A stretch of 64,000 nucleotides of DNA, taken from NCBI GenBank assembly GCA_022711405.1, contig JAKLFC010000010.1:1-64000 (forward strand), read 5' to 3'. Made by a program: the position numbers and the translations under genes. The first letter of the stretch is position 1; every line of letters starts with the position of its first letter. Origin of the DNA: Bacteroidota bacterium. GTDB taxonomy: Bacteria; Bacteroidota; Bacteroidia; Bacteroidales; JAGONC01. Below are positions 2,954 to 42,377 of the stretch, one piece after another. Under the pieces are notes generated by a model. That model was given only the letters and a program-made list of their open reading frames with translations. It had not been told where the DNA came from and searched no databases.

Positions 2954-5323
2954 CTATTTTTTCTGCTCAATGGTCACTTTATCTATCTTTCCATTGAATT
3001 TGGATGAGGTTCCATAATCTGCCACCCAGGTGCCATCATCCACTCCTACGTCAGCCAGGTCATCTACTGAGAAAATGCCTGCCTGTATGCGTTCAATTCT
3101 TTTTTCGGATACCTTGTTACCATCAACGGTAATCGTTCCGACACCCCCCTTCGCAGGACCTCCCCCGTCATAGTTGAAATCATACACGATCTGGTATTTG
3201 CCGGGTTTCAGTGGTTGGGAAGCCATCACATCCGTTGACTCCATGCCGAGATAATTGTATGTAAATGCAGGTTTGCCATTTTTCATATACAGGGAGAAAC
3301 CACCAAATCGGCCACCCTGGCATACAATCACGCCGTTTCCGTTGGCTTTCACTTCCACATCTGCCGTTATCGTGTAAGCCATATTTTTCAGGTCAATGAA
3401 AATATCGACGCCCATTCCTTTCATCCCTTCAAAGTAGGAAACGGTAGTCCGGTCTCCCAGGAGCACGGGTCTGCCAGCCAGTACGGCATCTGTTCGTTCC
3501 ACCACCCGGTCATCGATGGGCAGTACATGATATTTTTCAGCCTCTGCCATGAACTGATCCTGCATTGTCTTCAGTTTATCCGGGTGCTGGGCAGCCAGGT
3601 CGTTGGCCAGGCTGAAATCTTCCTGCGTATTATATAATTCCCACGTATCTTCCTGCAGAGATGCTAAAGGCAGACCCCAGGGAAGACGATGTATGGTCCT
3701 TGCATACCAGCCATCCTGGTAAACTCCGCGGTTACCAAACATTTCGAAGTATTGCACCGTATGTTTCTCCGGCGCACCGGCATCATTAAATGTATAGGCG
3801 AGGCTTTTGCCTTCAATGGGATCCTGTTCAATGCCATTCACCATTCCTGGTGCAGGAATCCCGGTGATTTCATAAATGGTAGGTGCAATATCAATCACAT
3901 GGCCAAACTGTGTCCGGATTTCACCTTTTGCTTTAATGCCATCAGGCCAGTGAATGACCATGCCGTTCCTTGTACCTCCAAAATCGGAAGCAACCTGCTT
4001 GGTATAGGAAAAAGGTGCGTCGAGCGCCACTGCCCAGCCGGCTGAAAAGTGCGGATAGGTGCTTGGAGATCCCCATTCATCATAATGTTTCAGCATATCC
4101 GGAACAGTTTCACGTACACCGCTGAAGTACGTCATCTCCTGATACATGCCATTCATCTGTCCTTCTGCGCTTGCACCGTTATCTCCGGCAATAAATATGA
4201 TGATCGTGTTGTCCAGTTCACCCAGATCTTCAATGGCCGCAACGAGTCTTCCGATTTCGTAATCCGTCTGTTCGGCAAATCCGGCATATACTTCCATCTG
4301 GCGGGTGAATAATTTTTTCTCATCAGCAGAGAGTGTTTCCCAGTCTTTGATATCAGCTGGCTTGGGGGCCAGTTGCGTATTCCGGGGAACAATTCCCAGT
4401 TTTTTCTGCCGTTCCAGAGTCTCTTCACGGAGCTTGTCCCAGCCCTGGTCAAATTTTCCTTTATATTTTTCGATCCATTCCGGCGCAACATGATGGGGAG
4501 CATGTGTTGCCCCGGGGGCATAATAGATAAAGAAGGGTTTATCGGGCTGCAGGGCTTGTTGTGCTTCCACCCAATCAATGGCCTGATTGGTCATGTCGGT
4601 TGTGAAGTGATAATTGGGGTCATCGGGTGTTTCAACGAGGGTAACGCCATCATAGATCAGCGGCGCCCACTCATTGGTTTCACCTCCCAGAAAGCCATAA
4701 AATTTCTCAAATCCTGATCGGGTTGGCCAACGATCCTGAGGTCCATTGTTGGAAAGTTCCCATGGCGGAACCTCATGGCACTTTCCAAACTGGGCGGTGT
4801 TGTATCCATTCTGCCTCAGCACTTCAGCCATTGGTGTAATGGTCTGTGGCCGCACGCCGGTATACCCGGGAAACGTAGTTGCTGCTTCGGTAATAACACC
4901 CATATTGTTTGAGTGATGGTTATAACCGGTGAGTAACGCCATACGGGTTGGGGCACTCAGTGCCGTTGTGTGGAAGCGTGTATACCTCAGACCGTAGTTA
5001 GCAAGCCGGTCAAGTGTTGGCATAGGAATGGGCCCTCCAAATGCTTCGGAAACTCCAAATCCCATGTCATCAATCAGTACAACCACTACATTGGGAGCGC
5101 CCGCCGGGGCTTTCACCTCGAAACGCGGAGGCGCAGTTGCATTGCGTACGTCAAGTTCTTTAAATGTTGGACGTACAGGCTCCCTGATTGGAAGCACCGT
5201 ACGGTCAGGTTCACCTCCCGCTGCCGGTGTGGTGGCCACGGGCTCAGTCGCGGGTTTTTGAGTGCAGGAAAGCAGTGCACCTGAAAGATTAGCCAGGATA
5301 AAAACAGATTTCGTGATTTTCAT
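2954..5323 (-). CDS. Serine-type sulfatase lipoprotein
   Basis: 789 residues. The signal peptide ends in an L-L-S-C lipobox (Cys20), so it is probably lipid-anchored. Alkaline-phosphatase-fold sulfatase domain: the metal-binding pair Asp85-Asp86 (V-V-L-I-D-D-M-G), the catalytic signature S-A-P-T-R at 123-127 followed by M-A-L-L-T-G, and G-D-N-G near 390. The formylglycine precursor is Ser rather than the commoner Cys, so maturation should need an anaerobic radical-SAM enzyme (AtsB/anSME); none is encoded here. The last ~150 residues form a beta-rich C-terminal domain. It probably removes sulfate esters from polysaccharides or small aryl sulfates; the substrate cannot be told. It is larger than the ~500-residue classical sulfatases but normal for this Bacteroidota subgroup. 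Confidence 0.85.
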   Translation of the reverse strand: MKITKSVFILANLSGALLSCTQKPATEPVATTPAAGGEPDRTVLPIREPVRPTFKELDVRNATAPPRFEVKAPAGAPNVVVVLIDDMGFGVSEAFGGPIPMPTLDRLANYGLRYTRFHTTALSAPTRMALLTGYNHHSNNMGVITEAATTFPGYTGVRPQTITPMAEVLRQNGYNTAQFGKCHEVPPWELSNNGPQDRWPTRSGFEKFYGFLGGETNEWAPLIYDGVTLVETPDDPNYHFTTDMTNQAIDWVEAQQALQPDKPFFIYYAPGATHAPHHVAPEWIEKYKGKFDQGWDKLREETLERQKKLGIVPRNTQLAPKPADIKDWETLSADEKKLFTRQMEVYAGFAEQTDYEIGRLVAAIEDLGELDNTIIIFIAGDNGASAEGQMNGMYQEMTYFSGVRETVPDMLKHYDEWGSPSTYPHFSAGWAVALDAPFSYTKQVASDFGGTRNGMVIHWPDGIKAKGEIRTQFGHVIDIAPTIYEITGIPAPGMVNGIEQDPIEGKSLAYTFNDAGAPEKHTVQYFEMFGNRGVYQDGWYARTIHRLPWGLPLASLQEDTWELYNTQEDFSLANDLAAQHPDKLKTMQDQFMAEAEKYHVLPIDDRVVERTDAVLAGRPVLLGDRTTVSYFEGMKGMGVDIFIDLKNMAYTITADVEVKANGNGVIVCQGGRFGGFSLYMKNGKPAFTYNYLGMESTDVMASQPLKPGKYQIVYDFNYDGGGPAKGGVGTITVDGNKVSEKRIERIQAGIFSVDDLADVGVDDGTWVADYGTSSKFNGKIDKVTIEQKK

Positions 5324-24683: not shown

Positions 24684-25076
24684 TTATTGCAGATTACTCT
24701 CTTTTGCCCGAAGGTTTTTTTCCGCTGTCTGGATGCTTTTCACAAAAATGGCTATCAGTTCACTGTTCTCAGCCACCAGAGCAAGTATTACATCGTTATT
24801 ATCCAGGTCTCTATTATGGACAAGGATTCTCAGGGAAACATGACATTCCCTGAGTTCTTTCAGGACAATTTTAATTTTATGAATGAAATCTTTTGATGAT
24901 TCTGCACTCTGTGCTTCAGCGTAATTTAGAGCTGTTGATGTGGAAGATCTGCTGAGCTGATTCGCCAGTTGTGAATGAAAATACGTATTCGGAAAAGTTC
25001 TTAGAACATCCTGAATGTGAACGACGAAATCAATAAGTCGGTTTTCGATCTGGTAAGAGGTAGATTTTGGTGTCAT
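24684..25076 (-). CDS. Four-helix-bundle protein (S23/IVP family)
   Basis: 130 residues of the four-helix-bundle family named after proteins encoded in 23S rRNA intervening sequences. Features: L-I-D-F-V-V-H-I-Q-D near the N-terminus, Q-L-x-R-S-S-T-S-T-A-L-N-Y-A-E-A-Q (the conserved S-S-x-S-x-x-x-N-Y-x-E-A segment), and F-I-H-K-I-K-I-V-L-K-E-L-R-E (K-E-x-x-E/R). Related proteins form pentameric barrels that bind nucleic acid; the Avd protein of diversity-generating retroelements is one. There is no 23S rRNA or reverse transcriptase here. The gene is enclosed by two 145-bp inverted repeats, which recalls the stem-enclosed ORF of rRNA intervening sequences and suggests the whole 24509-25289 unit moved as one. 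Confidence 0.85.
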   Translation of the reverse strand: MTPKSTSYQIENRLIDFVVHIQDVLRTFPNTYFHSQLANQLSRSSTSTALNYAEAQSAESSKDFIHKIKIVLKELRECHVSLRILVHNRDLDNNDVILALVAENSELIAIFVKSIQTAEKNLRAKESNLQ

Positions 25077-25355: not shown

Positions 25356-25428
25356 TGCCCGATGGTGTAATTGGCAACACGTCTGACTCTGGATCAGAAA
25401 AGTCTAGGTTCGAGCCCTAGTCGGGCAA
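25356..25428 (+). tRNA. tRNA-Gln (anticodon CUG)
   Basis: 73 nt cloverleaf: acceptor stem TGCCCGA/TCGGGCA with the U1-A72 pair typical of tRNA-Gln, D stem GTGT/ACAC, anticodon stem TCTGA/TCAGA with loop CTCTGGA (anticodon CTG, reading CAG), T stem CTAGG/CCTAG with loop TTCGAGC, discriminator A. CCA is not encoded. The DUF4136 gene that follows begins 75 bp downstream. Confidence 0.95.
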
Positions 25429-25502
25429 CTCATGCAGGGATCACCCATTTCGCGGGTAAGCTCGTTTATTCATACCATATTGTTAACCAAACTTTAATAG
25501 CC

Positions 25503-26037: not shown

Positions 26038-26166
26038 TAAAATTCCAAATACCAGGCACCAAATTCCAAACAAATTCCAGGTTCCAAATCACAAAACCAA
26101 AGACCGGTACTTGTGATTTGTTTACTGGATTTTGTTTGGAATTTGTATGTTGGAATTTGGGATTAT
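26038..26166. repeat. Dispersed AATTCCAAAT hairpin repeat, copy 1
   Basis: AAATTCCAAATACCAGGCAC…CAAATTCCAAAC on the left and TTTGTTTGGAATTTG…GGAATTTGGGA on the right pair into a long A/T-rich hairpin. Related copies are at 36597 and 42247. It fills most of the gap between the broken DUF4136 gene and the defence island and probably ends the upstream transcript. Confidence 0.75.
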
Positions 26167-26240: not shown

Positions 26241-26271
26241 AAGATTATTGGTCACAAATGAACAGGATGAA

Positions 26272-29121
26272 ATGAGCGATCTGAAGGAAGCTGCGCGTGA
26301 AAAAATTGCCCGTTTGGTCGAGCGTTTCCTTGAGCACATCGACGAATACAAACAGGGTGCGTACAAAGAATACCAGGCCAGAATCGATTACATCGACCCT
26401 TTCTTCAAGGCACTGGGCTGGGATATGGACAACGAACAGGGACTGGCGGAAGCGTACCGGGAGGTGATCCATGAAGACAGGCTCAAAGTGGGCAGATCAA
26501 CCACGGCACCGGATTATTGTTTTACGGTGTATGGCCAGCGTAAATTCTTCGTGGATGCCAAAAAGCCTTCGGTGGATGTGAAGGCTGATGTCTCACCAGC
26601 CTATCAGGTGAGGCGTTACGGCTGGAGCGCCAGGTTGCACATTGCCATCGTTACCGACTTTGAGGAGTTCTCGGTGTATGAGTGCTCATCCAAACCCAAA
26701 CCAACCGATAAGGCATCCGTTTCAAGGATCGCATATTTTACATTTGACCAGTACCTGAAGGAATTTGATTTTTTCTGGGACATCTTTTCAAAAGAAGGTG
26801 TGCTGAAGGGTCGGTTTGATAAGTTCGTTCAGAGCGACACCAAAAAGAAAGGCACCGCCACGGTCGATGAGGAATTCCTGAAATCCATCGAGGAATGGAG
26901 GACGTATATGGCAACGACCATTGCCCTCCGGAATAAAACGCTGAACGAGGATGAGATCAATTATGCTGTTCAGAAGCTCATTGACCGCATTATCTTTTTA
27001 AGGATTTGTGAAGACCGGGGAGTGGAGCCTTATGGGGAACTGCAAAGAGCTGCTGAAAAGGGAGAGGTGTATCAGAACCTTTGTCAACTGTTTCGTACCG
27101 CCGATGAGAAGTACGATTCCAGCCTGTTCAATTTCAGGGAAGACAGGATCACTCCCGGACTGATCATTGACAACAAGGTGCTGAAGATCATCGTTAAAGA
27201 CCTTTACTACCCGAAATGCGAGTTTGAATTTTCTGTGATGCCGGCTGATATTCTCGGTAGCGTATACGAACGGTTTCTGGGTAAGACGATCCGGCTGACG
27301 CCGGCGCATTATGCCAAAATTGAGGATAAACCGGAGGTGCGCAAAGCCGGAGGGGTTTATTACACGCCCAAATACATTGTGGATTACATTGTGGAGAACA
27401 CAGTGGGTAAACTGGTTGAGAACAAGACTCCGGGAGAAGCAGCCCAGCTAAAGATCTGCGATCCGGCCTGCGGTTCCGGTTCCTTTCTCATCGGAGCCTA
27501 TCAATTCCTGCTCGACTGGCATCTTAAATACTACCTTGCCCATCCACCGGCAAAGAAAAAGGATAGTCCGTTGACGCCAGATGGGCGTCTTACCACAGCC
27601 GAAAAGAAGCGAATCCTGCTGAATAACATCTATGGTGTGGATATCGATTCCCAGGCGGTGGAGGTGACGCGGCTGAACCTGTTGCTGAAGGCGATGGAGG
27701 GCGAGACGCAGGCGTCGATCAGCCAGCAGCTGAGCATGTTTCACGAGCGTGTGCTGCCTAACCTGGACAAGAACATCAAATGCGGCAATTCCCTGATAGG
27801 TACTGACTTTTACGACAATCAAATGGAGCTTTTTCCGGAACAGCTAAAGAAGATTAATGCCTTTGACTGGGAAACAGGATTTCCGGAGGTATTTAATAAG
27901 AAGACAGGCATGCCCGCTGAAGCTTCAGCGAAGGCGGGATTTGATGCGGTGATCGGGAATCCGCCGTATGGTGCGTCTCTTTCTGAATCGGAAGATGTTT
28001 ATTTACGAAAGAAATACCATGTCGCAAAGTATCAGTTGGATACTTATACATTATTTGTAGAACTTGCCTCAATTCTTACAAGTTCAGTTGGTGTCGTGGG
28101 TTTTATTATTCCATCAGCATGGATTGCATCTGTTTATGATATTGAACTTCGCAAATTTTTATATCATAATGTTAGACTTGAAAACATTGTAATTACCCCA
28201 AAGCAGACCTTTAAAGACGCAACTGTTGAAACACTAATTCTTATTTATTCGAAACTGGCTGGATTTTATGAAAAATTCAAAGTTGAGAGATGGGATAAAG
28301 ATGACATCTCTTATTTTGTCAATTTATATGAGGTTGATAATATGAATTTTTCATTCCCTATTTATACAAATCCAAGTATTTCACAGATAATCCACAAGAT
28401 TCGGTCTGTTAAAACAGCATTAGATGATTTTGCTGAAGTTGTCTGGGGTGTAAAGGTTTACGAAAAAGGTAAAGGGATCCCACCGCAAAAAGGCAATGAA
28501 AATAAAATAAAAGTATTTCACAGCCAAACTAAAACATCTCAAACTCATAGACCTCTAATTGGCGGCAAAGAGATTTTTAGATATGGTCTTAAATGGCATG
28601 GAACATTTTTAAATTACGGAAAATGGCTTGCTGCACCCAGAAGCCCAGATTGGTTTGATGGGAAAAGAATTGTGGTACGAGAAGTGACTACAAACGGTGT
28701 AATTCAAGCAACCATTATTTATTCTGATTTTGTGTTTTCAAATTCTGTTGATGGTATTCGATTAAAAGATAATAAGATAGAGTTAGAATATTTGCTTGGA
28801 ATAATTAATTCCAAACTTATCTCCTTTTATCATCTTCATACCTCACCAAATGCTTTTAAAGGGACTTTTCCAAAAGTCCTATTAAAAGATTTAAGAGAGC
28901 TTCCTCTTCCATCACCGCCTAAAGCAGTTCATGATCAAACTACTCATTTCGTTAAGAAGATACTTTCTTTACAAGAGGAATTTTCAAAGACCAATCTCGA
29001 TATCTATCACCAGCAAATCAAACGCACAATAGATCACACCGACAAGCAAATCGACCAGCTGGTGTACGAGTTGTATGGGTTGACGGAGGAGGAGATAAAG
29101 ATAGTGGAAAAAGGAGGTTAA
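26272..29121 (+). CDS. Type IIG restriction-modification enzyme (Eco57I/TaqI-C type)
   Basis: 949 residues combining nuclease, N6-adenine methyltransferase and target recognition in one chain. N-terminal PD-D/ExK-type nuclease: P-D at 80-81 and D-A-K at 95-97. A helical linker (~190-330) leads to the methyltransferase domain with motif I D-P-A-C-G-S-G-S-F (from Asp397), Y-G-V-D-I-D near 460 and motif IV N-P-P-Y-G at 563-567. The C-terminal part (~740-910) resembles the TaqI C-terminal specificity domain (G-I-I-N-S-K-L-I-S-F-Y-H). Base composition changes sharply soon after motif IV: codons are GC-balanced before about 28000, strongly AT-rich to about 28980, then balanced again, so the recognition region looks exchanged. 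An 11-residue palindrome-derived insert precedes motif IV. The next gene starts 3 bp after the stop. Confidence 0.9.
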   Translation: MSDLKEAAREKIARLVERFLEHIDEYKQGAYKEYQARIDYIDPFFKALGWDMDNEQGLAEAYREVIHEDRLKVGRSTTAPDYCFTVYGQRKFFVDAKKPSVDVKADVSPAYQVRRYGWSARLHIAIVTDFEEFSVYECSSKPKPTDKASVSRIAYFTFDQYLKEFDFFWDIFSKEGVLKGRFDKFVQSDTKKKGTATVDEEFLKSIEEWRTYMATTIALRNKTLNEDEINYAVQKLIDRIIFLRICEDRGVEPYGELQRAAEKGEVYQNLCQLFRTADEKYDSSLFNFREDRITPGLIIDNKVLKIIVKDLYYPKCEFEFSVMPADILGSVYERFLGKTIRLTPAHYAKIEDKPEVRKAGGVYYTPKYIVDYIVENTVGKLVENKTPGEAAQLKICDPACGSGSFLIGAYQFLLDWHLKYYLAHPPAKKKDSPLTPDGRLTTAEKKRILLNNIYGVDIDSQAVEVTRLNLLLKAMEGETQASISQQLSMFHERVLPNLDKNIKCGNSLIGTDFYDNQMELFPEQLKKINAFDWETGFPEVFNKKTGMPAEASAKAGFDAVIGNPPYGASLSESEDVYLRKKYHVAKYQLDTYTLFVELASILTSSVGVVGFIIPSAWIASVYDIELRKFLYHNVRLENIVITPKQTFKDATVETLILIYSKLAGFYEKFKVERWDKDDISYFVNLYEVDNMNFSFPIYTNPSISQIIHKIRSVKTALDDFAEVVWGVKVYEKGKGIPPQKGNENKIKVFHSQTKTSQTHRPLIGGKEIFRYGLKWHGTFLNYGKWLAAPRSPDWFDGKRIVVREVTTNGVIQATIIYSDFVFSNSVDGIRLKDNKIELEYLLGIINSKLISFYHLHTSPNAFKGTFPKVLLKDLRELPLPSPPKAVHDQTTHFVKKILSLQEEFSKTNLDIYHQQIKRTIDHTDKQIDQLVYELYGLTEEEIKIVEKGG
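27911..27938. repeat. In-frame palindromic element inside the RM gene
   Basis: CGCTGAAGCTTCAGCG (27915-27930) is a perfect 16-bp palindrome, extended by CCCGC on the left and GCGGG at 27934-27938. It is read as M-P-A-E-A-S-A-K-A-G just before F-D-A-V-I-G-N-P-P-Y, a place where methyltransferase relatives do not need extra residues. It is similar in style to repeat palindromic elements that insert in frame into genes. Confidence 0.65.
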
Positions 29122-29124
29122 TTT

Positions 29125-30888
29125 TTGCCTTTTATTCATCAAATAATTCACCCTGATAACCTGATTCAAGAGAAGGTGAACTTCTTTGCAGACTATTTTC
29201 ATTTTGTTACAGAAAACATCGGTGTTTATGATAATCTGGAAATCGAAAACTATTTATCCCTCTTTGAAAAAATAACATATCAAATTGAGAGCAATTTGGA
29301 ACATTGCCCCAAATATTTAGATCGTTATTTTTCTCATCCATTATTGAAGAAGGATAATAAGGATCTAATCAAATATCAACAATTCAGAAATTTTCAAAAT
29401 CTGATTAAGGGATATGAACAAGCAGGAACCATACACAAGAAAAGTAAATGGATCGAAGAAAATGCTCAGTTTAAAAGAACACTGAAAGCCTTAAAACGAG
29501 AGCTCAATCAAAACATGTTTAGTTCTGCACTTAAAGAAGTAATAAGAATGATAAATGATGATCATGAGCTTAGGGAATACTGTGAAGATATTAAATTTTA
29601 CACACTCATTTTAGTCAGTGAGTTTCTACTTAATAATAGAACTAAAAAGGATGTGGGTAAGGTATTTCAAAGAATAATGTCCGAAGAAACACACAAATTT
29701 CCTTTTCCACAATCGTTAATAGAAATATATAAAGGACAGGACTTGGATGAAGCTAAAAAAAGATATATTCAGGAAAGAACATTTGACCAGCAGTTCGAAG
29801 GTATTTTCAACATTCTGAAAGAAAAAGGTACAAGACATTATTTCTTATTTCGGATTGTAGACATAAATGCAAAATCTGATTTCAGCTTTAAATATAACAG
29901 AGTCACTTTTTATCATCCGGAACATATAAAGCTCAGGGAAATTAAAAAAGTCGTTGAAAAAGGAATAATTAAAGACTTTTTTAATTTCATGCCAATGCTA
30001 ATTGCTTCTGTTAAAATTGATTATTACAGCTCTGAATTAGCAGCACAGGAGGCTGTTGACATCATTAATAAGGAATTGAAATTTTTAAATAGTGTCTGCA
30101 AATCAAATGCTCATATTGAAAAATACCACTATTTATGGACATCTGATTTTAAAAGTATTGGATTTCATTTCGATGTATCTGAAAAGAACCACACTATTGG
30201 TGAAGACGATATTAAAATGCTGAAAAAAAATCCTTTCAAAATCTTAAAAAATATTAATAAAGAGTGTAGGAGTCAAATAATAAAATATGAATACTTGTAT
30301 ATACAAGCTTTATCAAGCTTTAGTTTGCATGATTACTGGCATTATTTGGAAGTACTTATCCCAACTAACGAAAAAAGTGAAAAGCAACTAATAGATATAG
30401 TATCAACCATACTTATTCTTTCCGACGAAATTAATGATAAGTCCCGGTTAAAGAATTATCTTATCAATGCTATTCTCCCATTCAACTCATCTTCTGATTC
30501 CCTTGGCATAACAAGTAAGCGACATAAGGAATATGTAAATCAATTAATAAATCAACGAGGTATTGATTTGAATGAAATCGAAAAGGAAATTACTAATCCA
30601 TTTTTATGTAGTTTGTTTAAATTACTTTCTAATCCTTATGGTAAAAGAAAGCTAAGAGAAAAAAAAGAATATTATTCCAGAGTTCTATGGGAACTACAAG
30701 CACAAAGAAATGCTATTATTCATTCTGGTTATGGGAATAAAAAGGCAATGATTTTATTAAGGGGTACTTTACCAAATTTGATCAGTAGATTTAGAAGGAC
30801 CTTATTTGATGCAATGGAGAACAATGAGGAAAATACGTTTAAAGAGTTGATAGACAATTTAAAAAAAAAGTCTGAAGACCTGTTATGA
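29125..30888 (+). CDS. Unrecognised protein with C-terminal HEPN-type motif
   Basis: 587 residues, Lys/Ile/Asn-rich, with no signal peptide or membrane helix. I do not recognise the first ~390 residues, which look mostly helical with a possible alpha/beta stretch at 220-330. The C-terminal ~190 residues fit a HEPN domain of the ApeA-like kind: a first helix with H-D-Y-W-H-Y-L-E-V-L-I and then R-N-A-I-I-H at 528-533, the R-N-x-x-x-H catalytic motif of HEPN ribonucleases. The start is TTG, preceded at 7 bp by AGGAGG, an unusually good Shine-Dalgarno for this phylum. It lies 3 bp after the type IIG gene, so the two are surely one operon. By analogy it may be an RNase effector that backs up restriction. 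An IS4 element sits 12 bp downstream. Confidence 0.75.
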   Translation: MPFIHQIIHPDNLIQEKVNFFADYFHFVTENIGVYDNLEIENYLSLFEKITYQIESNLEHCPKYLDRYFSHPLLKKDNKDLIKYQQFRNFQNLIKGYEQAGTIHKKSKWIEENAQFKRTLKALKRELNQNMFSSALKEVIRMINDDHELREYCEDIKFYTLILVSEFLLNNRTKKDVGKVFQRIMSEETHKFPFPQSLIEIYKGQDLDEAKKRYIQERTFDQQFEGIFNILKEKGTRHYFLFRIVDINAKSDFSFKYNRVTFYHPEHIKLREIKKVVEKGIIKDFFNFMPMLIASVKIDYYSSELAAQEAVDIINKELKFLNSVCKSNAHIEKYHYLWTSDFKSIGFHFDVSEKNHTIGEDDIKMLKKNPFKILKNINKECRSQIIKYEYLYIQALSSFSLHDYWHYLEVLIPTNEKSEKQLIDIVSTILILSDEINDKSRLKNYLINAILPFNSSSDSLGITSKRHKEYVNQLINQRGIDLNEIEKEITNPFLCSLFKLLSNPYGKRKLREKKEYYSRVLWELQAQRNAIIHSGYGNKKAMILLRGTLPNLISRFRRTLFDAMENNEENTFKELIDNLKKKSEDLL

Positions 30889-30900
30889 TATAAGAGAGTT

Positions 30901-32137
30901 CTTAGTACACGACAAAATTCCGTAATATTCTGAATATCAATAATATATGTTAATAACGTGGTGATAACTTTTCGGTATAAAATGATATAAAGCCCTGATA
31001 TTCAGTACCTTAGACAAAATACCGTCAAGTATGAATCCAAGGTACACGAACCCCAGGGCTGAGAGTAAAAAAAGCATTTTATTCGAAACATTGACACAAA
31101 TTTTTGGGGACAAAATGATTTTGGCCCGCAGTAAGTTCTTTGGCTTATTTATGTGTGCTCTTTACAAGGTTCAAACCGTCTGTTTCGAGAAACTGGCAAC
31201 CGGTTTTGACTGCCCGGCTAAAGTGGATTCTTCCCTGCGCATGATCCAGCGGTTCATGGCCGAATATATACTGGACACACGGCTAATTGCCCGGTTTATC
31301 TTCGCCTTGTTACCGCACAAGCCACCGTATCGTCTGACCATGGACCAAACCAACTGGAAATTCGGATCAACCGATATCAATATCCTGGTACTGGCCATAG
31401 TTTATCAAGGGGTGGCCTTTCCGGTACTGTATAAGATGATGCCCAAGAGAGGCAACTCTTCCACCCGGGAGCGAATCGCACTCCTGGAAGAGTTCATCGG
31501 ACTGTTTGGTGCTGACAGCATTGAATGCCTTTTGGCTGACCGGGAGTTTGTTGGCCAACACTGGCTGTCCTTCCTCAACCACCGACATATCCCCTACCAT
31601 ATCCGAATCCGGGAAAACTTCTGGGTTGTTATTCCACGAAATGGACATCATGTAAAAGCATCCTGGCTGTTTAACCACTTAAAGATCAATCAGTATGAAT
31701 TTTACCTGGGGATCGTCTATGTCAATGGTCAACTTTGTTACCTGTCCGCCTCAAAAATCAAAAACAAGCAGGGGGCTCTGGAACTCCAGATCATTGTCTC
31801 GTTTAACAAACCCGATGAATCACAGTCATTATACAAAGAACGATGGCAGACTGAATCTGCATTTAAAGCACTGAAAACAAGTGGTTTTAACATTGAAGGC
31901 ACCCACTTGACCGGTTTGGACCGTATCAATAAACTCCTGGCACTGGTTCTTTTTGCTTTTACCTGGGCGTATCTGGCAGGAATCTTTCTGGACTTGCTCG
32001 TCCCAATCAAAATCAAAAAGCATGGAAGAAAGGCAAAAAGCTTATTCAAATGCGGATTAACCTATCTTGCGAGTGTCCTGTTTTCCAACGATATAGATAA
32101 GTTTAAAGATGTTTGTAAATTTTTGTCATGTACTTAG
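30901..32137 (+). mobile_element. IS4-family insertion sequence
   Basis: About 1.24 kb bounded by imperfect inverted repeats: CTTAGTACACGACAAAATT at 30901-30919 and the complement of CTAAGTACATGACAAAAATT at 32118-32137. One transposase gene fills it, and its TAG stop is the outermost part of the right repeat. I see no convincing direct target repeat. It separates the type IIG/HEPN operon from the AAA/subtilase pair. Confidence 0.8.
31031..32137 (+). CDS. IS4-family DDE transposase
   Basis: 368 residues, intact. Catalytic residues: Asp105 (T-M-D-Q-T-N-W), Asp170 (L-L-A-D-R-E-F) and Glu275 in Y-K-E-R-W-Q-T-E-S-A-F-K-A-L-K, an exact Y-(2)-R-(3)-E-(6)-K signature of the IS4 family. The beta-strand insertion between the second Asp and the Glu, typical of IS4, is present at about 190-255. 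As frame and catalytic residues are intact the element may still move. Its GC content is close to that of the core chromosome and higher than its neighbours in the island, consistent with later arrival. Confidence 0.92.
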   Translation: MNPRYTNPRAESKKSILFETLTQIFGDKMILARSKFFGLFMCALYKVQTVCFEKLATGFDCPAKVDSSLRMIQRFMAEYILDTRLIARFIFALLPHKPPYRLTMDQTNWKFGSTDINILVLAIVYQGVAFPVLYKMMPKRGNSSTRERIALLEEFIGLFGADSIECLLADREFVGQHWLSFLNHRHIPYHIRIRENFWVVIPRNGHHVKASWLFNHLKINQYEFYLGIVYVNGQLCYLSASKIKNKQGALELQIIVSFNKPDESQSLYKERWQTESAFKALKTSGFNIEGTHLTGLDRINKLLALVLFAFTWAYLAGIFLDLLVPIKIKKHGRKAKSLFKCGLTYLASVLFSNDIDKFKDVCKFLSCT

Positions 32138-32232: not shown

Positions 32233-33210
32233 ATGGCTGCAGCGGATCAAATAAAAAGCTTGGTAAAATCCTTTGGTGAAGGTGACGAAGAGCGATTTTT
32301 TACAACGGCCATGCAGATCGCTGCTTCGGAGGCACGTAATGGACATACTATTTTTGCTCAGGAACTCAAATCCTTAATAGAAAAAGCAAAAAAGAACCGC
32401 TCACTTGCTTTTCTTGATCGCAACAAGACCATCCCGATTTTACAACCATCTCGTGAGTTACATGAATTAATAGAAGTGTTTCAGCCAAAGATCAAGCTGA
32501 ATGATATGATTCTCACACCTGAGGTTAAGGAAGCCCTGATAAAATTAGTGAATGAACAACGTCATTGGGAGATTCTTCGTCAATATAACTTAATGCCTCG
32601 AAGAAAACTTTTACTTCAAGGACCTCCGGGATGCGGTAAAACTATGACAGCGCAGGCTCTTGCAGGAGAGTTAGGAGTCCCCGTCTTCATAGTACGTTTA
32701 GATGGATTAATCTCAAAATTTATGGGAGAGTCAATTTCTAAGCTACGATTAATTTTTGACGCGATGCCCAATCACAGGGGTATTTATTTATTCGATGAAT
32801 TTGATTCTATCGGCTCACATAGAAATCAGGGACAAGACGTTGGTGAAATTAAACGAGTCTTAAACAGCTTCTTAATTAACATTGAAAAAGATCTAAGCAA
32901 TAGCGTTATTATTGCTGCAACAAATATGCCGGAATCTTTAGACAAAGCTCTCTTTAGAAGATTTGACGACATTATTACCTTCCCTCTGCCAAATGAAAAT
33001 GAAATAATAGATACGATCAAAAAGAACCTTGCCGGATTTAAATTTTCTCAACGAATCAATTACCCTGAGCTTGCCATAGAAGCGGAAGGCCTAAATTATT
33101 CCGATATTGTTAGAGCTTGTGAAGATACTATCAAGGAAATGATTCTTAAAAGGTTGATAAACCTTGAAAAATCAGATATGATTTCAGCATTAAAAAAACG
33201 TAAATCATAA
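32233..33210 (+). CDS. AAA ATPase, IetA-like
   Basis: 325 residues. A short helical N-terminus (~1-95) precedes a single AAA module of the FtsH/Cdc48 type: Walker A G-P-P-G-C-G-K-T at 130-137, Walker B L-F-D-E-F-D with Asp188-Glu189, sensor A-A-T-N, and an arginine-finger region R-R-F-D. Its stop codon directly abuts the ATG of a subtilisin-like protease, so the two are translated together. This two-gene order is that of IetAS, first described as a plasmid-stabilising toxin-antitoxin-like pair on pTiC58 and later included among anti-phage systems. The ATPase is expected to control or feed substrates to the protease. Confidence 0.85.
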   Translation: MAAADQIKSLVKSFGEGDEERFFTTAMQIAASEARNGHTIFAQELKSLIEKAKKNRSLAFLDRNKTIPILQPSRELHELIEVFQPKIKLNDMILTPEVKEALIKLVNEQRHWEILRQYNLMPRRKLLLQGPPGCGKTMTAQALAGELGVPVFIVRLDGLISKFMGESISKLRLIFDAMPNHRGIYLFDEFDSIGSHRNQGQDVGEIKRVLNSFLINIEKDLSNSVIIAATNMPESLDKALFRRFDDIITFPLPNENEIIDTIKKNLAGFKFSQRINYPELAIEAEGLNYSDIVRACEDTIKEMILKRLINLEKSDMISALKKRKS

Positions 33211-35748
33211 ATGCCCAGCCATTTTAACAAACCCCACATTGATAAAATTGAAGATTATGCCATAGGTCATCGCTATATTGATCGCAAAAGGAAAATTGAG
33301 TTTCCGATTCGATCACGTAATCGAGATGCGCATGGACGAAGGATTTTAAGGCAACTTGAAGCAATCCGTCAACAATTTGAAATCGAAGAAGATAGCGAAA
33401 TTCCTGAAAATATTGTCAAGGATGATGCCATTTATGTATCATTTGTTTCCGATTGGGACTATCCATTAAAATTTGAGCAACTGAACCAAAATACAGATGT
33501 GCCTAAATATCAAATCATAAACATTAAACAGGAACAAAATCCTGAAAATGAAAATCAATTTCGATATAAAGTTCTTGTAATGCTCACCAAAGGCGGGATA
33601 AGCCATTTTATAAAAAAAGCAGAGGAATATTTAACAGAGAATATAAAAGATAGGGAAGGTAATCTTACAGATAAGCCTAAATCATATCAATTGATATCAA
33701 ACATTCAAAACATTCAAATAGCAGCACTTCAGGCATTTTGGTCAGATGAATCGGAAATAAATTTTCCTGATTATGACGTAGTTACTTGGTGGGAAGCATG
33801 GTTTAGAAAAACAAATGAAGGTACAGCGAAGATTAATGCTGTAGAGAATAATCTTACCAGCCGAGGAGCTGTGTTAGGAGAGTTACAATTAGAGTTTCCA
33901 GAGCATTATGTAAGGTTGGTCAGAGGTACAGCATCTCAACTATCGCAGTCGTTAATGTTATTGGATAATCTCGCAGAATTACGTAAACCACAGGTTTTAT
34001 CTGATGTTATTTCATTAGATAATGTAACTTATAACGAAAGGGATCGTTGGCTAAGGGAATTGCTAAGTCATATCGAACATCGAATCAGTGATAATTCGGT
34101 TCTGATTTGTTTACTTGATAGCGGTGTTAACAATCAACACCCATTGATTAATCCATCACTTCCTGATAATAGATTGTACTCGTTGAATCCTGATTGGGGT
34201 AAATTTGATGGTGAACGAGGCGGTGGGCATGGAACTGGAATGGCCGGTTTGACTCTTTATGGTGACTTGACTGAAGTAATCTTATATCCTGCAAATATTC
34301 AGATTAGATATGGCCTTGAATCTTTTAAAATTTATAACCCTAATTCAGCCAATAACCCCAAACTTTATGGTGCCATATACGAATTAGCTTGTAGTAAGCC
34401 AATTGTAGATCGACCAGAAAATATTCGAGTCTTTTGCTTGTCAGTGACAAATAAAGATTTTGTTTTTCATGGCAGGCCATCATCAAGTTCAGCTTCAATA
34501 GATAAAATCGCTTTTGGGAATACGTTGAATCCACCTGATCCGCAATTGATTTTAGTAAGTGGTGGAAACGTTATAATAGAAAGAGCAGAGGAATACCCAT
34601 TGAATAACTTCTATGAATCAATCCAAGATCCAGCTCAGGCTTATAACGCTTTGACTGTAGGAAGTTATACAAGAAAAATTAATGTTAATCAAGAACAATG
34701 GCCTGGATGGAGGCCATTAGCTAATTGTGGCGCATTCGCCCCATCCAATTCAACTTCGGGAACCTGGGAGACAAAATGGCCTAACAAACCTGATATTGTA
34801 ATGGAAGGTGGCAATCTTGGGTACAATGGAAACGACGTCAGTTATTTAGATAGTTTGCAATTGTTAACAACCCATAAGAATTCACAATTAAATATTTTCC
34901 AAACATTTGGACAAACGAGTGCGGCGGTCGCATTAGCATCAAAAATGGCTGCTGAACTGAGAACCGAATATCCAAATTATTGGCCTGAGACCATTCGAGC
35001 TTTGATTGTAAATTCTGCAGTATGGACTGAAGAAATGTTAACAGGTAAAAATCTTGACTTGGAAGCTGACAGACGATCAATATTGCGTTCGGTTGGATAT
35101 GGAGTTCCAAATTTAGAAAAAGCACGCTATAGTGCTAATAATTGTTTGACAATGTTAGCTCAAAGAACAATCCAACCTTTCAGGGTAGAAGATTCAAAGG
35201 TAAAGTATAATGAGTACCATCTGTATGAGCTTCCTTGGCCAGTTGATGTATTAAGGGATGGAATTGGAGATAATGACGTCACCATCAAAGTAACTTTATC
35301 CTATTTTATTGAACCAAATCCAGGTAATCGTCAATATGCAACAAACTTTCGCTATCATTCTCATGGGCTTGATTTCAAGTTGATTAAACCTACTGAAACA
35401 ATAGAGATGTTTAGGAGAAGAGTATCTGCAGCTTCTTTGGAATCTGAGGAAACCGATGATGATACTATCGATACATCAGCTGAGGACTGGACGTTAAGAG
35501 AAAGAATTAGGAGTAAAGGTTCTATAAAAAAAGATTTTCTAACAACCTCTGGCATAAGTTTAGCAAATAGAAATGTCCTTGCAGTTTATCCTAAAAACGG
35601 GTGGTATCGAACAAGGAAAATACTTGGGAAGGTCGAATCATTAGTCAGGTATAGCTTAATTATTTCTTTAGAAACACCTGAGGTCGAAATTGATCTTTAC
35701 ACGCCGGTTTTAACTGCTATTCAGACGAGTATTCCTATTAATACCTAA
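33211..35748 (+). CDS. Subtilisin-like (S8) protease, IetS-like
   Basis: 845 residues, cytoplasmic (no signal peptide), starting on the base after the AAA gene's stop codon. An N-terminal region of ~290 residues of unknown fold precedes the S8 catalytic domain: Asp303 (L-L-D-S-G-V-N), His340 (G-G-G-H-G-T-G-M-A), oxyanion Asn453 (S-G-G-N) and Ser570 (G-Q-T-S-A-A-V-A). About 220 further residues follow. In IetAS the protease is the toxic partner restrained by the ATPase. Both genes are AT-rich relative to the core chromosome. Relatives are far larger than secreted subtilisins, matching this length. Confidence 0.87.
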   Translation: MPSHFNKPHIDKIEDYAIGHRYIDRKRKIEFPIRSRNRDAHGRRILRQLEAIRQQFEIEEDSEIPENIVKDDAIYVSFVSDWDYPLKFEQLNQNTDVPKYQIINIKQEQNPENENQFRYKVLVMLTKGGISHFIKKAEEYLTENIKDREGNLTDKPKSYQLISNIQNIQIAALQAFWSDESEINFPDYDVVTWWEAWFRKTNEGTAKINAVENNLTSRGAVLGELQLEFPEHYVRLVRGTASQLSQSLMLLDNLAELRKPQVLSDVISLDNVTYNERDRWLRELLSHIEHRISDNSVLICLLDSGVNNQHPLINPSLPDNRLYSLNPDWGKFDGERGGGHGTGMAGLTLYGDLTEVILYPANIQIRYGLESFKIYNPNSANNPKLYGAIYELACSKPIVDRPENIRVFCLSVTNKDFVFHGRPSSSSASIDKIAFGNTLNPPDPQLILVSGGNVIIERAEEYPLNNFYESIQDPAQAYNALTVGSYTRKINVNQEQWPGWRPLANCGAFAPSNSTSGTWETKWPNKPDIVMEGGNLGYNGNDVSYLDSLQLLTTHKNSQLNIFQTFGQTSAAVALASKMAAELRTEYPNYWPETIRALIVNSAVWTEEMLTGKNLDLEADRRSILRSVGYGVPNLEKARYSANNCLTMLAQRTIQPFRVEDSKVKYNEYHLYELPWPVDVLRDGIGDNDVTIKVTLSYFIEPNPGNRQYATNFRYHSHGLDFKLIKPTETIEMFRRRVSAASLESEETDDDTIDTSAEDWTLRERIRSKGSIKKDFLTTSGISLANRNVLAVYPKNGWYRTRKILGKVESLVRYSLIISLETPEVEIDLYTPVLTAIQTSIPINT

Positions 35749-36596: not shown

Positions 36597-36653
36597 TTTT
36601 CTGAAATTTGGATCCTGGAATTTGTTTGGAATTTGTATGTTGGGATTTGGGAT
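36597..36653. repeat. Dispersed AATTCCAAAT repeat, copy 2 (half)
   Basis: CTGGAATTTGTTTGGAATTTGTATGTTGGGATTTGGGATTT-type sequence, split here for length, matches the right arm of the copy at 26038. It ends flush with the gltX stop codon on the minus strand. Confidence 0.7.
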
Positions 36654-38186
36654 TTAAGATCCGGAAAGCGCTTCAACACCGGTAATAATCCTCCTGACGG
36701 TTTCAGCTTTCCCGATGGTCTCCATAATCTCCGTCAGGTGCGGCCCGATGCCGGCACCGACCAGGCACAGCCGTAATGCATTCATCACCTGCCCCGTGCC
36801 GTAGCCTTTCTGCTCGATCCAATCTTTCAGCCTTGCTTCAAGGGCTGACGACGTAAATGGTTCAAGGTCTTTCAGCAGGGTTGCAGCCTCTGTCATAATC
36901 GCAGGCGTTTCTTGCTTCCAGCGTTTCCTGACCACCTCCTGATCGTAGCTTTCCGGGGCTTTGAAAAAGAACCACGACTGATCCCACATATCTTTAACGA
37001 AATCAACTCGTTCCCTGACCATTTCCACTACTTTGCGGATCCGGGAGTCATCAGCCCGAACGCCTTTTTCTGCCAGCACAGGGCGGAACTGATTCACCAG
37101 TTCTTCCACGGGCCTCTGCTGCAGGTACTGCCGGTTGTACCATTTCGCTTTTTCGGGATCGAAACGGGATCCGGATTTGCCAACCCGTTCAATGGAAAAA
37201 GCTTCAATGAGCTCATCCATTGAAAACAGCTCCTGCTCTGTCCCCGGATTCCACCCCAGGAACGCCAGCATGTTCACAAAGGCTTCGGGGAAATAACCGG
37301 ATTCGCGGTAGCCGGATGATACCTCTCCCGTGAACGGGTCTTTCCACTGCAACGGGAAAACGGGAAATCCGAGCCTGTCGCCGTCACGTTTTGATAACTT
37401 GCCTTTGCCGTCAGGTTTCAGCAGCAAGGGCAGATGGGCAAATTCCGGTTCTTTCCATCCGAACGCCCTGTACAGCAGCGCATGCAGGGGCAGCGAAGGC
37501 AACCACTCCTCACCGCGGATCACATGGGTGACCTTCATCAGGTGATCATCCACCACGTTGGCCAGGTGGTACGTGGGCATGCCGTCGGACTTGAACAGGA
37601 CCTTGTCGTCGAGGGTGGATGAATGTACGATGACCCAGTCACGGATCAGGTCATATACGCGCACCTCCTGGCCGGAAGGGATCATAAAGCGAATGACATA
37701 AGGCTGGCCGTCATTCACTCTCTGCCTGACCTCCGTTGCCGGAAGCGTCAGTGAATTGGTCATCGACATACGGGAAAGGTAACCATAACTGGTATTGATG
37801 GCTTTTTCGCTTTCCAGCCGCCTGCGCATCTGCTCCAGTTCCTCCGGTGTATCGAAGGCCAGGTAAGCTTTCCCTGAGGCGACAAGCTGCTCGGCATAGT
37901 CACGGTATATGGCCTGCCGGTCGGATTGCCGGTAAGGGGCATACGGCCCGCCTTCACGGATCCCTTCATCGAAGTGCAGCCCGATCCAGTGCAATGACTC
38001 GATGATGTAATCTTCTGCACCGGGCACAAACCGCCCCTGGTCCGTATCCTCAATGCGAAGAATGAACCTGCCCTGATGTTTCCTGGCAAACAGGTAATTG
38101 TACAATGCAGTCCGAACACCCCCAATATGTAACGGTCCGGTCGGACTTGGCGCAAACCGTACCCGTATCTCTCTGGTACCTTCCAT
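36654..38186 (-). CDS. gltX: Glutamyl-tRNA synthetase
   Basis: 510 residues from the ATG giving M-E-G-T-R-E-I-R-V-R-F; an ATG eight codons earlier also exists but is closer to the promoter than usual. It attaches glutamate to tRNA-Glu. HIGH-type motif P-S-P-T-G-P-L-H-I-G-G near residue 13-23, the GluRS form; K-L-S-K-R-D-G-D is the KMSKS equivalent. The C-terminal half is the all-helical anticodon-binding domain of bacterial GluRS. Having both gltX and glnS means each tRNA can be charged directly. Divergent from the M49 peptidase gene. Confidence 0.96.
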   Translation of the reverse strand: MEGTREIRVRFAPSPTGPLHIGGVRTALYNYLFARKHQGRFILRIEDTDQGRFVPGAEDYIIESLHWIGLHFDEGIREGGPYAPYRQSDRQAIYRDYAEQLVASGKAYLAFDTPEELEQMRRRLESEKAINTSYGYLSRMSMTNSLTLPATEVRQRVNDGQPYVIRFMIPSGQEVRVYDLIRDWVIVHSSTLDDKVLFKSDGMPTYHLANVVDDHLMKVTHVIRGEEWLPSLPLHALLYRAFGWKEPEFAHLPLLLKPDGKGKLSKRDGDRLGFPVFPLQWKDPFTGEVSSGYRESGYFPEAFVNMLAFLGWNPGTEQELFSMDELIEAFSIERVGKSGSRFDPEKAKWYNRQYLQQRPVEELVNQFRPVLAEKGVRADDSRIRKVVEMVRERVDFVKDMWDQSWFFFKAPESYDQEVVRKRWKQETPAIMTEAATLLKDLEPFTSSALEARLKDWIEQKGYGTGQVMNALRLCLVGAGIGPHLTEIMETIGKAETVRRIITGVEALSGS

Positions 38187-42246: not shown

Positions 42247-42377
42247 TAAAATTCCAAATCCCAACATCCAAATTCCAAACAAATCTCAAGATTCAAATTC
42301 CAACGCATTGTCAAGGCTTTGGACCCTGGGATTTGGAATTTGTTTGGAATTTGGTGCCTGGGATTTGGGATTTGCGA
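42247..42377. repeat. Dispersed AATTCCAAAT hairpin repeat, copy 3
   Basis: AAAATTCCAAATCCCAACAT…ATTCCAAACAAAT on the left and GGATTTGGAATTTGTTTGG…GGGATTTGGGATTTG on the right. It fills the whole gap between two convergent genes and can form a stem in either transcript, so it is a likely bidirectional terminator. Confidence 0.78.

Follow-up and report, generated by a model that had tools for sequence, protein, structure and literature searches.

Genes for HEPN proteins have been known in restriction–modification (RM) operons since 2013, when Anantharaman et al. described at least 16 clades of them and proposed that they contribute to a multi-pronged defence (PMC3710099), in an account whose main text does not use the term IIG. 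In the same account, ApeA, whose N-terminal domain is described as consisting mostly of beta strands, is embedded in epsilonproteobacterial RM operons. HEPN backup effectors are also described in BREX and BREX-related loci, among them the DUF499 loci, where a HEPN-fused ATPase has been proposed to act as a suicide backup effector (PMC12839542). Here we analysed a 64,000-nucleotide window (positions 1 to 64,000 of contig JAKLFC010000010.1, assembly GCA_022711405.1), which is part of a 139-kb contig in the 3.6-Mb genome of a Bacteroidota bacterium of the order Bacteroidales, and focused on a single-polypeptide type IIG RM gene that is followed directly by the gene for a 587-amino acid (aa) protein with a predicted HEPN domain. 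On balance we favour, with modest confidence, the reading that this protein is a stand-alone abortive-infection effector carried behind type IIG genes. The analysis adds a rare and unnamed HEPN family, whose proteins are large and which is paired in two cases with a single-gene restriction enzyme, a different one each time; what is new is this family in a known kind of arrangement and, possibly, a wider pattern of exchangeable genes behind type IIG genes.

The locus shares features with each of the closest described systems and differs from all of them. As in the HEPN–RM operons, the HEPN gene apparently sits in one operon with RM genes, but the window protein has no Pfam HEPN match and its partner is a single-polypeptide type IIG enzyme. 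The C-terminal HEPN domain recalls the anticodon nucleases PrrC and RloC, and PrrC likewise lies beside a restriction system; however, no AAA/ABC ATPase match was found by Pfam in the window protein, and the partner of PrrC is the type Ic hsdMSR rather than a type IIG enzyme. With ApeA, which a preliminary description of this DNA had named as the model for the C-terminal domain, the protein has in common a large N-terminal part followed by a C-terminal HEPN domain. Yet neither the window protein (up to E=1) nor any of the four family members scanned (4/4) has a Pfam HEPN match, and, in a model of moderate confidence built from four sequences (mean pLDDT 57.2), residues 1–235 are helical and residues 236–348 mixed alpha/beta, in contrast to the mostly-beta N-terminal domain of about 300 residues reported for ApeA (PMC3710099). 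Membership in ApeA is therefore not supported. HepT of the MntA-HepT system (6m6u) gives the best structural alignment for the window domain, but it is a 130-residue chain with a nucleotidyltransferase partner, whereas the window gene has no such partner beside it and adjoins a type IIG gene and an IS4-family transposase gene. The DUF499 systems similarly combine an N6 methylase and a HEPN RNase in one defence locus, although their HEPN domain is fused to an ATPase and accompanied by a separate helicase, unlike the free-standing HEPN protein next to the type IIG enzyme here. A described pair of a type IIG gene and a large HEPN gene was not found in the literature, which is a weak negative with subscription papers mostly uncovered; the statement of the preliminary description that no such pair was known is thus uncontradicted, although HEPN–RM operons in general are well documented (PMC3710099).

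The two genes are on the same strand and are separated by only three bases (TTT), as the preliminary description had it, and both the open reading frames (ORFs) and the junction sequence bear this out (Table 1). The type IIG gene is identified by PADLOC (REase_MTase_IIG, PDLC03604, E=1.3e-189) and by Pfam matches to Eco57I (2.3e-35), TaqI_C (1.9e-18) and N6_Mtase, while its translation, read by eye, contains PD...DAKK in an N-terminal nuclease-like region, the N6 methyltransferase motifs DPACGSGSF and NPPYG, and a TaqI_C-type specificity domain. Judged by these motifs it belongs to the type IIG class, with nuclease motif, N6 methyltransferase and specificity domain in one polypeptide, and is predicted to cleave and methylate DNA. 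The TTG start of the HEPN gene is consistent with the N termini of relatives in the family alignment. GC content falls from about 0.5 to about 0.3 within the type IIG gene near position 28000, is 0.42 at its very end and is lower again in the HEPN gene; this profile, which is suggestive only, looks as if the specificity part of the enzyme and the HEPN gene were of outside origin. A 24-base stretch close to the 3' end of the type IIG gene occurs only once in the window, even when up to 3 mismatches are allowed.

The 587-aa protein belongs to an unnamed family, matched to no named one in the libraries searched. NCBIfam, PADLOC and PHROGs gave no match up to E=1, Pfam gave only two chance-level matches below its cut-off (IL34, 0.02, and NEW1_HB, 0.031), and sequence searches of the PDB yielded no match up to E=1 with the single protein or with family profile A1, and five unrelated matches (E 0.38 to 6.1) with family profile A7. 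The preliminary description, which recognised no family, was right in this respect, and also in pointing to a HEPN signature, RNAIIH, in the C-terminal domain. Across an alignment of 14 full-length members, with 19–40% identity between the relatives and the window protein, residues M1, K17, R528, N529 and H533 alone never vary, and R-N-x3-H forms the sole invariant cluster. Because R528, N529 and H533 are among just five invariant positions in 14 divergent members, RNAIIH is, judging from the alignment, more than a chance match. Membership among HEPN proteins is indicated by the R-x4-6-H pattern (here R-N-x3-H), which is conserved across the family in 14 of 14 members.

The predicted structure points in the same direction. 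When residues 372–587 were modelled alone with AlphaFold2 (AF2) from the 14 aligned sequences, the model consisted of helices only and reached a predicted local distance difference test score (pLDDT) of 90.3 and a predicted template modelling score (pTM) of 0.82; in the first, four-sequence model this C-terminal part had been mostly below 50. After re-alignment with VIA-align of 520 PDB chains from the Foldseek list, HepT (6m6u) came first with Z 7.0 and a root-mean-square deviation (rmsd) of 2.6 over 97 residues, a modest score for helical bundles, in which values of Z below 13 can reflect a common arrangement. It was followed by Csm6 (6tug; Z 5.7, rmsd 4.2) and Csm6' (8pe3; Z 5.6, rmsd 4.8), and then, closely, by receptors and a designed bundle (Z 5.3 to 5.1). 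HepT, Csm6 and Csm6' are HEPN RNases, and in Csm6 the HEPN domain is the C-terminal one. Structure searches gave nothing below E=1.1 in BFVD and nothing in the PDB with the four-sequence model (best E 0.46). The comparison with HEPN structures that the preliminary description had proposed thus returned an all-helical domain with HepT, Csm6 and Csm6' as its best three chains, alongside a null Foldseek result, and we consider it very likely, on the strength of the model, that the C-terminal domain has a HEPN fold.

The family is rare. Whole-genome searches, which covered the phylum of the window, found the window protein alone among 198 relatives, and members in 4 of 395 genomes across the phylum, its own among them. 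A class-level search with profile A1 had matches in 10 of 395 genomes, five of which were accepted (again including the window's own), the other five being weak partial matches (E 1.9e-4 to 0.0076) not taken as homologues. Four order-level searches gave 3/330, 1/36, 2/218 and 2/87 genomes, each count including the already known centre, and a pattern scan of genome contigs from any phylum gave seven loci, two of them known already. The total is 16 distinct loci (L021 is the same as L018, and L024 the same as L004), of which 14 are full length; a C-terminal fragment (G946) and a partial gene at a contig edge (L027) were omitted from the alignment. All loci are in Bacteroidota except L025, on a 4,190-base contig in an alphaproteobacterial metagenome-assembled genome (MAG), a placement that may be a matter of binning. 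Pattern scans of genome contigs and viral contigs with the single protein found no close relatives, and no relatives were found by tblastn at E 0.1 among plasmids and phages or by family profile A4 among viral contigs.

How often these homologues adjoin a type IIG gene, a question already raised in the preliminary description, has a divided answer. The HEPN gene stands directly behind a type IIG gene in two full-length members. One lies in the window; the other, L022, lies in the Bacteroidetes MAG NC_groundwater_320, and there the type IIG gene codes for 1227 aa and the two genes overlap by 4 bp. In the flanks read, the remaining 12 of 14, among them L025 with its short contig, show no adjoining type IIG gene. 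When all 14 loci and L040 were scanned with a pattern for the conserved end of the type IIG gene, it matched in the window and L022 only. An obligatory type IIG–HEPN system was considered and rejected on the same count of 2/14. The two paired HEPN proteins are 27% identical and were joined in 0% of 200 bootstrap trees, falling in different branches, and their type IIG partners share 33% identity over 437 columns (window residues 529–947) and 27% over 153, with DUF7149 and DUF7814 in front of the L022 enzyme. Since the HEPN genes are in different branches and the partners differ, two separate pairings are, on these comparisons, likelier than one. A defence-type neighbour was recognised by Pfam or PADLOC in 9 of 14 loci (Table 1), so the homologues do not lack the link to RM or defence genes whose absence, according to the preliminary description, would have spoken against its proposal; other neighbours include a Bro-N gene in L025 and integrases in L007 and L037.

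Related type IIG genes offer a view of what else can occupy this position. They were found at 28 places in 13 of 119 genomes of the class and 10 places in 8 of 87, with 4 more in 2 of 6 genomes and 7 in 3 of 7; the sample omits G593:C37 (at a contig end), the pseudogene L117, the degenerate match L115 and the window's own gene, includes G593:C56, which is broken by a stop, and L132 and L133 are one locus. Used in full length as a query, the type IIG protein had matches in 46 plasmid records, and its end (153 aa), used as a single query, had no match in plasmids and viral contigs. The gene behind the type IIG gene varies by locus in the Bacteroidia sample, and certain families turn up near more than one of these genes, namely the window HEPN family twice, GmrSD-DUF4268 twice and DUF559 three times; a 381-aa family is found in L099, L136 and, at a greater distance from the type IIG gene, L102, and a 147–149-aa family in L132 and, one gene further along, in L095. 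In a script recount with a crude ORF caller, thresholds chosen after the first loci had been seen and rows that are not independent (several type IIG genes per genome), a co-directional ORF of at least 70 aa with a gap of at most 15 bp was present behind 22 of 34 Bacteroidia chromosomal type IIG genes versus 77 of 332 other gene pairs (Fisher p 1.4e-6), and behind 20 of 34 (p 4.4e-5) after removal of two core genes recognised by eye (sucD-like and mutase-like). A close partner gene behind type IIG genes is thus well supported in this sample. This support comes chiefly through a small protein, as 7 of the 22 close ORFs are small (76–153 aa, mostly the small partner protein) and larger genes alone give p 0.06. 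These observations suggest an effector slot behind type IIG genes. It is a tentative and rather doubtful extension that the 3' end of Bacteroidia type IIG genes serves as a swap slot for exchangeable second-line effectors, often followed by the small protein ending in QLSLF, and an equally tentative part of it that the effectors would comprise HEPN RNase, TIR, GmrSD nuclease, DUF559 nuclease, DUF4238 and several families without a name. We keep this low because the excess falls short of significance once the small partner is set aside. Under such a scheme the decayed 3' ends in L095 and L121 (see below) would be recombination footprints in the conserved last codons, and the window HEPN family would be one interchangeable part; if it were true, the gene behind a type IIG gene would be a systematic place to search for anti-phage effectors not yet known, a use that defence islands and RM operons already serve.

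If the HEPN protein is, as we favour, a stand-alone effector, the roughly 370 residues of its large N-terminal part would serve as a sensor for some mark of infection, and the HEPN domain at the C terminus would then, as a dimer, cut RNA by means of R528 and H533 and thereby halt the cell. The gene would share a transcript with the type IIG gene, to whose translation its own would probably be coupled, and because of this linkage the locus would hold two layers of defence, DNA restriction first and RNA cleavage second. Control of the HEPN protein would nevertheless be independent of the enzyme, as befits a self-contained module that probably took up its place behind a type IIG gene on two occasions, where other, unrelated genes stand in related loci. 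A number of results weigh against this account or parts of it. Besides the modest Z score for HepT, Foldseek found nothing significant for the domain model in the PDB (all E ≥2), and the N-terminal part has a moderate model only and no structural match. The family tree is weak: good support is confined to 1 of its 11 inner branches, and what is well supported would by itself be compatible with a single origin of the pairing. The neighbour scan covered 20 selected genes, 7 of which had no match; no defence neighbour was recognised in L005, L018 and L038 (by eye, with one L018 gene scanned), and three scanned neighbours in L006 had no Pfam match above the cut-off. As for the place behind type IIG genes, larger non-core genes taken alone follow 13 of 34 type IIG genes versus 77 of 332 other pairs (p 0.06, not significant), and 17 viral-contig loci show no enrichment, with 4/17 versus 38/111 at a gap of at most 15 bp and, likewise, 8/17 versus 44/111 at a gap of at most 40 bp.

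The main rival, which we hold to be unlikely, is a guard pair like PrrC/EcoprrI, in which the type IIG protein would hold the HEPN RNase silent until a phage anti-restriction protein, or unmodified DNA engaging the enzyme, set it free. The PrrC precedent and its proposed extension to RM-linked HEPN proteins (PMC3710099) lend it weight, as do the probably separate origins of the two pairs and their tight, apparently coupled junctions, one with a 3-bp gap and a Shine-Dalgarno-like stretch and the other with a 4-bp overlap. On the other hand, no type IIG gene adjoins the HEPN gene in the read flanks of 12 of the 14 full-length members, and for this reason we do not favour the earlier proposal that the RNase acts when restriction is blocked or is guarded by the RM half; moreover, the C-terminal halves of the partner enzymes are only 33% identical and Pfam shows their front parts to differ, which would confine any conserved guard-binding surface to the part they have in common. 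That the pairing is explained by carriage, not by guarding, is our inference. The scarcity of type IIG neighbours (2 of 14) would also suit the idea, less probable still, that two defence genes of one island abut by chance, with no functional or mobility link: the island is rich in defence genes, with an IetAS-like pair behind the IS4-family gene, abutting co-directional genes are common (77 of 332 pairs in the loci compared), and larger genes are not in significant excess behind type IIG genes. Chance accounts less readily for two abutting cases in different branches of the family and for gene families found more than once, each time behind another type IIG gene. Lastly, the domain might be HEPN-like and serve RNA binding or dimerisation only, given that some HEPN domains lacking the motif are thought to be noncatalytic (PMC3710099); this we regard as very improbable for a family whose 14 aligned, divergent members all keep R, N and H, as expected of a catalytic site.

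Table 1. Features of the window, genes behind related type IIG genes and defence-type neighbours of the HEPN family
Feature	Locus	Position	Strand	Remarks
Type IIG gene	window	26248..29121	+	ORF; 957 aa from TTG, 949 aa from in-frame ATG 26272
AAAGGAGG, Shine-Dalgarno-like	window	29110..29117	+	inside last type IIG codons, 7 nt 5' of HEPN TTG
HEPN-domain protein gene	window	29125..30888	+	ORF; 587 aa, TTG start
Predicted C-terminal HEPN domain, residues 372-587	window	30238..30885	+	AF2 model, structural re-alignment
R528-N-A-I-I-H533, predicted RNase catalytic motif	window	codons 30706..30723 (residues 528-533)	+	R, N, H invariant 14/14
IS4-family transposase	window	31031..32137	+	NCBIfam transpos_IS4_2 3.9e-64; outside the pair
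IetAS-like pair, AAA ATPase	window	32233-33210	+	second defence module of island
IetAS-like pair, S8 protease	window	33211-35748	+	second defence module of island
Small conserved protein	L087	4895-5284		
Small conserved protein	L090	3635-4027		
Small conserved protein	L091	5880-6290		
Small conserved protein	L092	5210-5614		
Small conserved protein	L104	3227-3610		
Small conserved protein	L100	4223-4603		
Small conserved protein	L103	3661-4044		
Small conserved protein	L120	1633-2019		
Behind type IIG: TIR	L086			
Behind type IIG: GmrSD with DUF4268	L098, L102			69% identical to each other
Behind type IIG: DUF559	L100			by Pfam
Behind type IIG: DUF559	L103			by similarity to that of L100; gap 122 bp
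Behind type IIG: DUF559	L120			by similarity to that of L100; gap 63 bp
Behind type IIG: DUF4238	L101			
Behind type IIG: weak BanI-like match only	L099			
Behind type IIG: no Pfam match	L085, L087, L088, L090, L094, L096, L097			
Behind type IIG: OLD-like gene	L131			viral-contig locus; gap 33
Behind type IIG: GIY-YIG gene	L130			viral-contig locus; gap 35
Defence neighbour: type IIG	window, L022			
Defence neighbour: IetAS-like	window			
Defence neighbour: GmrSD	L007, L039			
Defence neighbour: SLFN_AlbA_2	L019, L039			
Defence neighbour: AAA_21	L020, L037			
Defence neighbour: SIR2_2	L023			
Defence neighbour: Card1	L037			
Defence neighbour: TOTE primase-helicase	L026			

Several further observations concern the genes behind other type IIG genes. 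Two products that stand directly behind type IIG genes contain R-x4-6-H motifs that look HEPN-like by eye, RNRCNDH in L088:5080-5886 and RSKLVH in L090:3000-3638, without a Pfam match. In L102:1118-6588, the GmrSD-DUF4268 gene trailing the type IIG gene is followed by ORFs of 478, 239 and 269 aa, of which the 478/239-aa pair appears, by eye only, MotA/MotB- or Zorya-like. The small protein, of about 125–150 aa, is found behind many type IIG genes, with another gene in between in L087, L090, L100, L103 and L120, and in L088 as well if its divergent 125-aa protein belongs to the family. A regular expression, Q[LMT][SNT]LF, matches its C-terminal end in 9 of 10 distinct copies, and two additional copies end likewise; the small proteins of L088 (perhaps not a member) and L116 do not end in this way. 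The pentapeptide resembles the beta-clamp-binding motif. A decayed second copy of the type IIG 3' end lies at L095:2069-2134, beyond a small ORF, and another, in L121 at about 4181-4237, lies beyond an ORF named by eye as REP-type transposase-like.

The surroundings of the pair in the window add a few minor points. The IetAS-like pair was recognised by PADLOC (IetA, 1.5e-73; IetS, 2.4e-36), the NCBIfam scores being below cut-off. A repeat of about 34–49 nt occurs at 26116-26164, 36606-36654 and 42250-42283. The 49-nt copies around 26.1–36.6 kb were considered as ends of the island and rejected, because the third copy at 42250 lies outside and the repeat is therefore dispersed. Upstream, just before a tRNA-Gln gene (25356-25429), there is a gene on the minus strand (24684-25076) for a protein of the 23S rRNA intervening-sequence family (Pfam, 9.3e-14).

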